Positions 6,644 through 44,720 of a stretch of 64,000 nt of DNA are shown one piece after another. A program made the translations under genes and the position numbers. Below the pieces are notes generated by a model. That model had not been told where the DNA came from, did not search any database, and saw only the letters and a list, made by a program, of their open reading frames with translations. Each line of letters opens with the position of its first letter. The first letter of the stretch is position 1. Source of the stretch: Heliomarina baculiformis (lineage in GTDB: Bacteria; Pseudomonadota; Alphaproteobacteria; Rhodobacterales; Rhodobacteraceae); the NCBI RefSeq assembly GCF_019966545.1, contig NZ_JAIMIC010000010.1, positions 1 through 64,000 on the forward strand. Direction: 5' to 3'.

Positions 6644-7273
6644 TCAGGTATCCTGTCTTTGGAGTATCCCGTTGAGGAACACATCGGCATAGGTGTGTGA
6701 CAACGCATCGGCGCTACCGCGGTCCGGGTCGAACCAATCGAGCGTGGCGTTCAATGTACCGATCAGCATCAGGCGCAGGCGGCGGATATCGACGTCTTGC
6801 TTCAGCGTGCCGTCTTTCTTAAGCTGGGACAGAAGACTGTCCCACTCGGCCTCATAGGCCCGTCGCGTGGGCAAGTTGGCATCCCGCACGGATTGCGGCA
6901 CCTGCCCGAAAATACGCACATTCGCCGACGTATAATCGCTCACATCAAGAAGCGCGCGCAGATGCGCCCGGATCGCGGCGCGCAGTACCGTTTCGCCGTC
7001 GGTATCGGCTGGCAGATCGGTGATGGCGTCTCTCATGCTCGCGTGAACGACTCGAATCCCTGCATCAAGAACGGCCACGACGATCTCGTCCTTGGAACCG
7101 AAATGATAGTATATGCTACCCGCCTTGATCCCGGCGGCCTCGGCAATTTTTCGGAGCGAAACGGACCCGTAGCCTTGTTCGCGGAAAAGCCGCGCGGCAA
7201 TGTCGAGCACCCCGTCCCGTCCGACTGCGCTGCGCGATGTCTCGTTGACTTTGCTTGCCGTGTTTTGTGCCAT
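6644..7273 (-). CDS. TetR-family repressor
   Basis: This 209-residue one-component regulator has an N-terminal helix-turn-helix with the recognition region KAGSIYYHFGSKDEIV. Its ligand domain contains SDYTSANVR and LNATLDWFDP. Those signatures recur in both halves of the tandem TetR protein at 21828-23159, so the two proteins form one subfamily, plausibly sensing related acyl-CoA ligands. It is the first gene of the carboxylase/bioY operon, with only four bases to the next gene. A palindrome of the window-wide operator type lies 26-43 bases upstream of its start, so it is probably autoregulated. Confidence 0.87.
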   Translation of the reverse strand: MAQNTASKVNETSRSAVGRDGVLDIAARLFREQGYGSVSLRKIAEAAGIKAGSIYYHFGSKDEIVVAVLDAGIRVVHASMRDAITDLPADTDGETVLRAAIRAHLRALLDVSDYTSANVRIFGQVPQSVRDANLPTRRAYEAEWDSLLSQLKKDGTLKQDVDIRRLRLMLIGTLNATLDWFDPDRGSADALSHTYADVFLNGILQRQDT

Positions 7274-7298: not shown

Positions 7299-7316
7299 AA
7301 CTAACGACCGTTAGGT
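7299..7316 (-). promoter_or_regulatory. Variant TetR operator at the tetR-carboxylase-bioY promoter
   Basis: The core CTAACG-AC-CGTTAG (7301-7314) is a perfect 6+6 inverted repeat with the same half-site and 2-base spacing as the TCTAACA-N2-TGTTAGA sites elsewhere, but with G/C instead of A/T next to the centre. On the minus strand TTGCGT (7322-7327) and TTAGTT (7299-7304), 17 bases apart, could be the -35 and -10 boxes, so the palindrome would lie between them. Confidence 0.6.
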
Positions 7317-9546: not shown

Positions 9547-9564
9547 TTCTACCATTTGTTAGAA
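9547..9564. promoter_or_regulatory. TetR-type operator between thiolase and PaaY-like genes, site 1
   Basis: TTCTACCA-TT-TGTTAGAA matches the window consensus TTCTAACA-N2-TGTTAGAA at 15 of the 16 defined positions. It lies 54 bases upstream of the thiolase start in the divergent 9494-9771 spacer, a position suited to controlling the minus-strand operon. Confidence 0.65.
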
Positions 9565-9628: not shown

Positions 9629-9646
9629 TTCTAACGTATGTTAGTT
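9629..9646. promoter_or_regulatory. TetR-type operator between thiolase and PaaY-like genes, site 2
   Basis: TTCTAACG-TA-TGTTAGTT keeps both CTAAC/GTTAG cores of the window consensus. On the plus strand it lies between TTGCGT (9619-9624) and TTAGTT (9641-9646), which are 16 bases apart and could be -35 and -10 boxes for the PaaY-like gene. Confidence 0.6.
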
Positions 9647-16766: not shown

Positions 16767-16784
16767 TTCTAACATGTGTTTGAT
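16767..16784 (+). promoter_or_regulatory. TetR-type operator and promoter of the dehydrogenase operon
   Basis: TTCTAACA-TG-TGTTTGAT matches the window consensus at 14 of 16 defined positions. TTGATC (16757-16762) and TTTGAT (16779-16784), 16 bases apart, may be the -35 and -10 boxes, so a bound repressor would block the promoter. A further half-site (TTCTAACG, 16728-16735) lies toward the divergent crotonase gene. Confidence 0.65.
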
Positions 16785-21827: not shown

Positions 21828-23159
21828 TCAGGGCGTGCCTTGTCCTGTAGACGGGGCGGTTTCCCGGTTGCAAATTCCTTCCAGCAGAAGCTTGATGAGC
21901 ATACCGGAGAACTCAGGCAGTGAGAGATACCCTTCCACTCCTGCCTTGTTCGGGTCGAACCACTCTACCGTCCAGTTCAAGGCACCCAACATCACCTGGC
22001 GCAAAGGAACGATCTTGATATCCGACCTTATCGCACCGTCTTGCTGCGCTTCGCGAAGGATCATGTCCCAAAGTCGCCCGTAGTCGTGGCGAATGCCTCG
22101 GTGCCTTTCCCGAAAGTGGTTGGGCAGCATCCCATAACTTCTGATGTTCGCTGAGGTGAACTCGCTTGCCTTAAAGAGAAAATCCAGATGCGTCCAGATT
22201 GCGGTTGCTATTCTGGTGTGATGATCGCATGGGGAATCGAACTTCTGAACGGCTGCACTGACACCGGATAGCAGATCGCTTAACCCTTCGTTGAGTACCT
22301 CGTCCACGATCGCTTCCTTGGATTTGAAATGGTAGTAGACGCTACCCGCCTTCATGTCCGCTTCGTCAGCGATCTTCCGCAGCGTTGTCGCCTTGTAGCC
22401 ATTGTCCCTCAGAACGCGCGCCGCCACTCGCAGGATCTCTGCGCGGGTCTTCGCGGCCTTGCCGTTGGTATCAAGGATATTGACGGGAGCGGCGGGGGTC
22501 AGCTTCAGACCTTCTGTTTCAGCTCTGCGATCCAAACACATACCGTCAAGTATCAGCTTGCTCATACGTTCAGCGAGGATGTGCACCGGATACTTTTCGA
22601 CATCGTACCATTCCACGGTCCAGTTCATGGCACTCAGGATGAACTGGCGGATCACAGTAATGGATATGTCACTTCGAAGGTGACCGTTACGTTTTGCTTC
22701 ATTCAGGAAACTGCCCCAGGCCCCTGCATAAGAGGCACGCAACTCACGGTGAGGCGCGCGGGTTTCATCCGACAACATCGGATAGTTCCGGATATTGGCC
22801 GAGGTGAAATCGCTCTCAGTCAACAGGTAGGTCAGGTGTGTTTCGATCAGCAATGCGAAGGTCTTGCGGAAATCCTCCGGGTTCTTCTTTGCAACCCGAA
22901 CAATTTCTCGGACCTCCTCGTAGAGCTGACGGACACCAAGTTCGAGAACCTCGCTCAGAATCTGGTCCTTGGATTGAAAATGGTAGTATATGCTGCCGGC
23001 CTCAACGCCTGCTTCCTGCGCGATGTCGCGCATCGTCGTCGCGTAATAGCTTTCGTACCGAAAAAGTCGAGCGGCCGCCGAGAGAATGGCTTCACGTGTC
23101 CTCTCTGACTTGCTCAGATCTTCATTCACTGTGTTGGTTGCGTCAGTTCTTATTGCCAT
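21828..23159 (-). CDS. Tandem (double) TetR-family regulator
   Basis: The 443-residue product is two complete TetR proteins in one chain. Half one has a helix-turn-helix at about 20-66 (EAGSIYYHFQSKDQIL) and a ligand domain to about 210 with SDFTSANIR. A short linker (about 211-236) joins half two, with its own helix-turn-helix at 237-285 (KAGSVYYHFKSKEAIV) and a domain with SEFTSANIR and LNWTVEWFDP. Ordinary TetR proteins are about 200 residues and dimerise; this one could bind a palindrome as a single chain or pair up to four DNA heads. No frameshift or stop separates the halves. Its promoter has an almost perfect operator, implying autoregulation. No clear Shine-Dalgarno precedes ATG 23159. 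Confidence 0.9.
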   Translation of the reverse strand: MAIRTDATNTVNEDLSKSERTREAILSAAARLFRYESYYATTMRDIAQEAGVEAGSIYYHFQSKDQILSEVLELGVRQLYEEVREIVRVAKKNPEDFRKTFALLIETHLTYLLTESDFTSANIRNYPMLSDETRAPHRELRASYAGAWGSFLNEAKRNGHLRSDISITVIRQFILSAMNWTVEWYDVEKYPVHILAERMSKLILDGMCLDRRAETEGLKLTPAAPVNILDTNGKAAKTRAEILRVAARVLRDNGYKATTLRKIADEADMKAGSVYYHFKSKEAIVDEVLNEGLSDLLSGVSAAVQKFDSPCDHHTRIATAIWTHLDFLFKASEFTSANIRSYGMLPNHFRERHRGIRHDYGRLWDMILREAQQDGAIRSDIKIVPLRQVMLGALNWTVEWFDPNKAGVEGYLSLPEFSGMLIKLLLEGICNRETAPSTGQGTP

Positions 23160-23203: not shown

Positions 23204-23221
23204 ATCTAACAAATGTTAGAA
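23204..23221. promoter_or_regulatory. Perfect-core TetR operator between tandem tetR and BadH-like gene
   Basis: TCTAACA-AA-TGTTAGA (23205-23220) is an exact 7+7 palindrome. It lies 45 bases upstream of the tandem-TetR start and 65 bases upstream of the SDR start, in a divergent promoter. TTGCAT (23195-23200) and TAGAAT (23217-23222), 16 bases apart, may be the plus-strand promoter. Confidence 0.75.
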
Positions 23222-23285: not shown

Positions 23286-24047
23286 ATGCGAGGGTTGAGT
23301 GGGAAACGGGTCATCGTGACCGGCGGCGGCAGCGGCATCGGTCGCGCGGTTTGTGGACGGTTCGGCGAAGAAGGTGCCGAAGTCGCCGTTTTCGATCTGA
23401 ACAAGGATGGGGCGGAAGAAACTGTCCGACTGATCGCCGAGGCTGGCGGAAAGGCGCAGGCCTTCAAGGTAGACATCACCGACCGCACCCAGATCGACAC
23501 GGCGGTGACCGAGTTCGAGGCCGGAGGTCCGATCGACGTGCTGGTGAACAACGCCGGCTGGGACGAAAGTAGGCTGTTCCTCGACACCGATGCCGAACTT
23601 TGGAAGAAGGTCATCGACATCAACCTCTATGGCCCGCTGAACATGCACCACGCGGTGCTGCCGGGCATGGTAAAGAACGGCGGCGGCCGTGTGGTGAATA
23701 TCGCGTCCGACGCGGGTCGTGTCGGATCATCGGGCGAGGCCGTCTATTCGGCCTGCAAGGGCGGCATCATTTCCTTTACAAAGACCGTAGCTCGAGAACT
23801 AGCGCGCAAGGGGGTTCAGTTGAACGCTGTCGCGCCCGGCCCCACGGACACACCTTTGTTCGCCGAATTCGCGCAAGGTGAAGCTGGCGAAAAGATTGCC
23901 GAGGGTCTCAAGCGGGCGATCCCGATGAAGCGCCTGGGGCAACCTTCCGACTATCCCGGCATCATCTGTTTTCTTTCATCCGACGACGCAGGGTTCATCA
24001 CAGGCCAAGTAATTTCGGTTTCAGGCGGCTTGTCGATGCACGGCTAG
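23286..24047 (+). CDS. BadH-like short-chain dehydrogenase (2-hydroxycyclohexanecarboxyl-CoA dehydrogenase type)
   Basis: This 253-residue SDR has TGGGSGIGR (12-20), LVNNAGWD (87-93), Ser 141 and YSACK (Tyr 154, Lys 158), with Asp in FDLNKD for NAD. The stretches NNAGWD and NIASDAGRVGSSGE, and the AVYSACKGG core, closely recall BadH of alicyclic-acid degradation, which oxidises a 2-hydroxyacyl-CoA (beta-hydroxy) ring. That suggests a cyclic or alpha-branched 3-hydroxyacyl-CoA substrate; other 3-hydroxyacyl-CoAs are possible. The gene faces the tandem tetR across an operator and is followed by a hairpin with a T run. Confidence 0.8.
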   Translation: MRGLSGKRVIVTGGGSGIGRAVCGRFGEEGAEVAVFDLNKDGAEETVRLIAEAGGKAQAFKVDITDRTQIDTAVTEFEAGGPIDVLVNNAGWDESRLFLDTDAELWKKVIDINLYGPLNMHHAVLPGMVKNGGGRVVNIASDAGRVGSSGEAVYSACKGGIISFTKTVARELARKGVQLNAVAPGPTDTPLFAEFAQGEAGEKIAEGLKRAIPMKRLGQPSDYPGIICFLSSDDAGFITGQVISVSGGLSMHG

Positions 24048-31735: not shown

Positions 31736-31753
31736 TTCTAACATTTGTTAGAT
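31736..31753. promoter_or_regulatory. TetR-type operator between reductase and eleven-gene operon
   Basis: TTCTAACA-TT-TGTTAGAT matches 15 of 16 defined consensus positions and contains a perfect 7+7 palindrome (31737-31752). It is 36 bases before the reductase start and 39 before the dehydrogenase start. TTGATC (31726-31731) and TTAGAT (31748-31753), 16 bases apart, form a possible plus-strand promoter around it. Confidence 0.75.
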
Positions 31754-44702: not shown

Positions 44703-44720
44703 TTCTAACATATGTTAGAT
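44703..44720 (+). promoter_or_regulatory. TetR-type operator and promoter of the importer operon
   Basis: TTCTAACA-TA-TGTTAGAT contains a perfect 7+7 palindrome (44704-44719). TTGATA (44692-44697) and TTAGAT (44715-44720), 17 bases apart, look like -35 and -10 boxes, so the operator fills the spacer and overlaps the -10. It lies 154 bases upstream of the ABC ATPase start and is the cleanest promoter-operator in the window. Confidence 0.75.

Follow-up and report, generated by a model that had tools for sequence, protein, structure and literature searches.

On the minus strand of the window, which denotes the whole 64,000-nucleotide stretch analyzed here, a gene at 21828-23159 with an ATG start codes for a regulator of 443 amino acids in which two TetR repressors seem to be joined end to end. 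This locus raises the question of whether such a tandem is genuine, how its two units are arranged towards each other, and which DNA sites and ligands they might recognize. The explanation which fits best, and which is considered probable though short of certain, is a one-chain TetR pseudo-dimer on a palindrome, which would repress an Atu/Liu-like acyl-CoA regulon, would be released by an acyl-CoA, and would go back to one duplication and fusion.

Two TetR units in one conserved frame

The 443-codon frame, as read from the letters, contains no internal stop codon. Pfam assigned to its product two TetR_N domains (E 2.8e-35) and two TetR_C_24 domains (E 9.5e-27), i.e. the TetR/AcrR hallmark of a TetR_N helix-turn-helix (HTH) followed by an all-helical ligand/dimer domain is present twice per chain, and the polypeptide comprises two full TetR units in the manner of a double TFR. 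The N-terminal unit (residues 14-209; 22533-23120, minus strand) carries an HTH with the recognition helix EAGSIYYHF and a TetR_C_24 ligand/dimer domain; the C-terminal unit (residues 233-430; 21870-22463, minus strand) carries an HTH with MKAGSVYYHF and a second TetR_C_24; the linker between them (residues 210-232; 22464-22532, minus strand) is weakly conserved and has mostly low pLDDT. GS[IV]YYHFxSK and TSANIR occur in the N half and the C half alike, and the description in an earlier note, made from the letters alone, of two complete TetR proteins in one 443-residue chain, each with its own HTH signature and TSANIR, is borne out. The two halves of the window protein are 44% identical. In most members of the family the N-half recognition helix reads xEAGSIYYHF and its C-half equivalent x[KQE]AGSVYYHF, with E53 fixed in the former and its counterpart being E, K or Q in the latter; as the window protein pairs E53 with K270, some asymmetry of DNA reading is possible. 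The protein also scores 153.1 bits against the profile NF041196 (ScbR autoregulator-binding factor; cut-off 150), a sum over two units, where TetR1, the single-domain TetR of the first operon, alone gives 68.9; the pass is probably an artefact of adding two units, and the name ScbR may mislead.

The homologue set comprised 80 loci from other genomes, with one genome per species. A single open frame of at least 430 codons is present in 78 of them; the other two are L058, for which the anchor used was out of frame, and L083, which is cut by a contig end. With the same open frame in 78 of the 80 loci, the fusion is no error: the search for the same architecture in related genomes which the earlier note had proposed found it, and a missed stop or frameshift between the halves, which that note had named as what would overturn its reading, is ruled out. 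Among 29 dereplicated sequences, the mean pairwise identity of both HTHs and both ligand domains is 0.76/0.68/0.76/0.71, and that of the freely varying linker 0.21, which indicates that both halves are under selection. A decaying second half is likewise rejected, as both the HTH and the ligand domain of the C-terminal unit are conserved; this speaks against the lack of a functional DNA-binding domain there, which the note had also considered.

Relatives are also coded on many Roseobacter plasmids. Here 147 plasmid records cover at least 80% of the query, a figure which is no count of double TetRs, because its low-identity rows include single TetRs (from Rhodococcus, Burkholderia, Mycobacterium avium, Aminobacter and Acinetobacter) matched by both halves. 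An apparent triple TetR in L096-L100 (1950-base matches) turned out to be two genes, the tandem gene and, behind it, a distinct TetR gene.

In a maximum-likelihood tree of N halves, C halves and single TetRs, all N halves form one clade (support 100/98) and all C halves another (100/99), and these two clades are sisters (100/96.9). Because each half has the other as its nearest relative, the tandem family goes back to a single event of internal duplication and fusion; the sister relation rules out a fusion of unrelated TetRs and agrees with the suggestion that the duplication is old rather than recent. A single-domain TetR would have been duplicated in tandem once and the copies fused, with the palindromic operator being kept, and such an event, before the gene spread across Rhodobacterales, Rhizobiales and Acidocella, would explain the pattern. 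The nearest unfused relatives in the tree are two Bradyrhizobium single TetRs (98/90). One of the Bradyrhizobium singles (L141, 6707-7462) also has in its vicinity a homologue of the SDR gene which, in the window, is transcribed divergently from the tandem gene.

Predicted pairing within the chain

AlphaFold2 provided a model of the window protein with a mean pLDDT of 85.6 and a pTM of 0.85, which aligns with DNA-bound Mce3R from Mycobacterium tuberculosis (9b7y) over 368 residues (Z 28.1, 4.4 Å, 16% identity). A second model, of the L098 protein (52% identical to the window protein), reached a pTM of 0.81 and aligns with the same structure over 367 residues (Z 29.3). The next-best chains after 9b7y were single TetRs, with Z 20.2 for the window model (about 190 residues) and 15.8 for L098. 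Both models are single-chain predictions, with a scope confined to arrangements within one chain. In 9b7y, one chain builds the whole omega-shaped repressor; the four-helix bundle is formed within the chain, the two HTHs are placed ≈ 32 Å apart in major grooves, and the pseudo-dimers pair into a homodimer gripping two DNA duplexes (PMC11667970). Because both models match 9b7y along the whole chain, the predicted half-to-half arrangement is the same as in Mce3R, i.e. the model alignments have the units paired within the chain to give one omega-shaped repressor. Intramolecular pairing is thus supported by the models, and the monomer prediction called for in the earlier note speaks for its proposal of a single-chain pseudo-dimer that could read one palindrome, as do the conserved palindrome described below and the like recognition helices. 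The N and C units would join up via their ligand/dimer domains, whereby one polypeptide would show two nearly equivalent HTHs spaced for a single palindrome TCTAACANNTGTTAGA.

The palindrome and the genes behind it

Between the tandem gene and the divergent SDR gene, a perfect palindromic operator, TCTAACA-AA-TGTTAGA (TCTAACAAATGTTAGA), is located at 23205-23220. Of the 78 loci, 77 have a near-perfect 16-bp counterpart of it ahead of the tandem gene, mostly 60-65 bp from the gene start and kept down to 52% protein identity; in the exception, L094, a perfect copy is found 2.4 kb upstream, before other same-strand genes. In an unbiased inverted-repeat scan this palindrome ranks first in most sequences. 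Its two half-sites agree in the bases they prefer and in the changes they tolerate, and such equivalence agrees with the near-alike recognition helices of the N and C halves; the kind of recognition known from Mce3R, with a non-palindromic operator and dissimilar HTHs, is not what the tandem family displays.

The operator, designated class I, is spread over the gene cluster: eight sites within three mismatches were counted in the window, against 0.41 expected in shuffled sequence, and six of the eight stand at cluster promoters (9548, 9630, 16768, 23205, 31737 and 44704) and span 35 kb. Perfect copies are located at 31737-31752, between the divergent operons of an old-yellow-enzyme-type reductase and an acyl-CoA dehydrogenase, and at 44704-44719, upstream of a Liv-type ABC transporter/acyl-CoA ligase operon. 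Consequently, of the claim that the tandem gene sits on the most perfect operator of the window, the perfect palindrome stands and the superlative does not. The operator at 31737 overlaps the program-made ORF starts at 31744 (minus strand) and 31745 (plus strand), and the true starts of both flanking genes are therefore probably further in. One mismatch each is found at 16768-16783, between the AtuA operon and an acyl-CoA dehydrogenase operon, and at 9548-9563, upstream of the thiolase-like/SDR/TetR1/carboxylase operon; a class I-like site with two mismatches follows at 9630-9645, 82 bp from the former. Such paired operators about 82 bp apart are kept in L142, L143, L144, L147 and L148. At 16768-16783 the deviation is one-sided (TGTTTGA half) and kept across genera (L081, L088, G063-G065, G070-G073); it may stem from reading that differs between the halves or from an overlapping promoter element.

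Along the whole genome (5.33 Mb), all nine sites with 0-1 mismatch reside on contigs C1 and C14, which make up 141 kb or 2.7% of the bases. In a comparison of 61 genomes, exact matches to the core pattern number seven and five in the two with the tandem gene and two in total across the other 59, in which a full-length close homologue of the tandem protein was not found. On C14, perfect core palindromes (G000:C14:13208 and 15666) accompany a second acyl-CoA/Liv-type operon (L139), and on C1 two more (G000:C1:104366 and 108027) accompany further acyl-CoA genes (L138); with perfect palindromes before acyl-CoA catabolic genes outside the window, the regulon exceeds the window cluster. The genes behind the sites code for an AtuA family protein, three biotin-dependent carboxylases, acyl-CoA dehydrogenases, enoyl-CoA hydratases, HMG-CoA-lyase-like and citryl-CoA-lyase-like enzymes, thiolase-like proteins, PaaI thioesterases, CoA ligases and a Liv-type ABC transporter. 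We infer that the cluster serves an Atu/Liu-like pathway for a branched or isoprenoid-like acid; a literature search on AtuA clusters in Roseobacters did not yield a paper on it. The divergent SDR oxidoreductase gene (23286-24047, plus strand), which is the same neighbor in most related loci examined, is a probable target. Bound at these putative operators, the tandem protein would repress its own gene, the SDR gene and the other acyl-CoA catabolic operons of the cluster; it may also act as an activator.

In this context one has to consider TetR1 (6644-7273, minus strand), a separate regulator in the first operon, which is 33% and 37% identical to the tandem halves, in keeping with the likeness remarked upon earlier, and which forms with its orthologues a separate clade in the tree of halves and single TetRs. 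A class II operator, CCTAACGGTCGTTAGT when read in the direction of the gene, stands immediately upstream of TetR1 at 7300-7315, and TetR1 orthologues have the related site CCTAACANNTGTTAG[T/G] directly upstream as well (L142-L155). It might be supposed that the palindrome belongs to TetR1, and that the tandem protein works elsewhere or merely modulates the site of TetR1, a relative of the tandem halves with a very similar site at its own promoter. The class I and class II sites differ in their outermost bases alone (TetR1 site CCTAAC..GTTAG[T/G]): 22 of the 24 distinct sites at tandem promoters carry an outer T..A pair, but none of the 11 distinct sites at TetR1 promoters does (Fisher 1.9e-7, for loci that are not independent and uncorrected for relatedness). 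Furthermore, the T..A palindrome persists in L095, L101 and L080, MAGs (which may be incomplete) where no TetR1 orthologue was found. On these two grounds the class I site is assigned to the tandem protein, and ownership by TetR1 is regarded as very improbable. Since TetR1 belongs to this cluster too and its operator is very much alike, the holder of each site is not provable from sequence, and cross-binding of the two proteins to each other's sites is likely.

Ligands, rival arrangements and known double repressors

In the ligand domain a set of invariant residues is common to the two halves, namely TSANxR, H137/H353, R141/R357, W148/W364, W184/W400, N179-W180-T181/N395-W396-T397, and a Y, which suggests the same or a similar ligand for both pockets; only three positions (L/F, D/E, Y/F) are invariant per half and differ between the halves. 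In its fold the tandem model matches KstR2 and AibR, two repressors known to bind CoA thioesters (the entry titles of the structure matches agree for AibR). Together with the acyl-CoA gene neighbors, this match makes an acyl-CoA the likely inducer, by analogy: a pathway acyl-CoA would occupy the pockets, and the tandem protein would leave the DNA.

These residues also bear on the proposal, put forward in the earlier note, that two pockets sense two different acyl-CoA ligands as a logic gate, with induction by both or either. The halves have diverged to 44% identity and many ligand-domain positions differ, as such a gate would have it, but the shared invariant residues and the mere three half-specific ones make it unlikely. 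One may also think of a symmetric assembly of two chains, in which N would pair with N' and C with C' to give two joined TetR dimers with four HTHs, two kinds of ligand site and two palindromes. Full dimer and ligand domains with shared invariant residues in both halves, a symmetric operator of the kind homodimers read, and the operators 82 bp apart at one promoter (9548, 9630) would suit this assembly. On the other hand, both AlphaFold2 models show the fold of 9b7y, with its pseudo-dimer formed inside one chain, most promoters have one palindrome and not two, and the solved double TetR, tested on this very point, pairs within the chain (PMC11667970). The two-chain assembly is thus considered improbable.

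Compatible with the favored single-chain pseudo-dimer is a higher-order bridge, akin to the four-headed dimer suggested in the earlier note, in which pseudo-dimers would pair again, hold two distant operators and loop the DNA of the cluster. The Mce3R homodimer of pseudo-dimers on two DNA duplexes provides the precedent (PMC11667970), the six class I operators would offer the anchoring points, and helix 4 of the C half, which corresponds to the contact helix of Mce3R, shows good conservation; this conservation may, however, stem from other causes, and bridging is put forward only tentatively, as less likely than not. A further reading, a palindrome-reading pseudo-dimer whose halves are starting to split DNA-reading and ligand-binding roles (E53 fixed vs E/K/Q) and which perhaps bridges operators, is conceivable but less likely than not.

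The double-TetR architecture as such is already known from Mce3R, which resembles the tandem protein in having two TetR units per chain, in the whole-chain structural match, and in its lipid-metabolism genes and divergent gene arrangement; in the literature searched for other tandem TetRs, Mce3R was the only case, apart from 204 double TFRs predicted in Actinomycetes that are mentioned along with it. The halves of Mce3R come from distinct TetR subgroups, and it combines two non-identical HTHs with a non-palindromic operator (PMC11667970), whereas the tandem family, only 16-18% identical to it, has sister halves, almost the same recognition helix twice and a palindromic operator. By sequence, Mce3R is not the closest relative of the window protein (16% identity), as single TetRs score higher (4mxm 105.2 bits vs 62.9 bits for 9b7y), and the two fusions are therefore probably independent. 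KstR2, AibR, PfmR and B. subtilis FadR share with the tandem protein the fold of each half, a palindromic operator, control of acyl-CoA catabolic genes and a probable CoA-thioester inducer; they are dimers of separate chains, in contrast to the tandem protein with both units in one chain. AtuR from Pseudomonas aeruginosa, the single-domain TetR repressor of the acyclic terpene utilization genes, is likewise found beside an AtuA-containing cluster. In the engineered single-chain Tet repressor (scTetR), of which the literature searched held passing mentions only, two linker-joined TetR units read one palindrome; it is man-made from copies of one protein, and the tandem protein would be its natural counterpart.

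While the solved double TetR reads a non-palindromic site, the tandem family represents the other outcome, covalently joined sister TetR units with a palindrome that is conserved from Rhodobacterales to Bradyrhizobium. The close unfused relatives and TetR1 allow one to ask why bacteria fuse repressor dimers; possible gains are the lack of a dimerization step, the avoidance of mixed dimers with TetR1, and the freedom of one half to drift. If the halves are indeed starting to split their roles, the route from a homodimeric repressor to a covalent heterodimer could be traced via the unfused relatives from Bradyrhizobium and TetR1. The family also offers a ready regulon for an uncharacterized, often plasmid-borne acyl-CoA pathway in marine Roseobacters. 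Two other alphaproteobacterial double TetRs, L016 (468 aa) and L018 (427 aa), are ≈ 23% identical, with two HTHs that are very unlike, and probably represent independent fusions.
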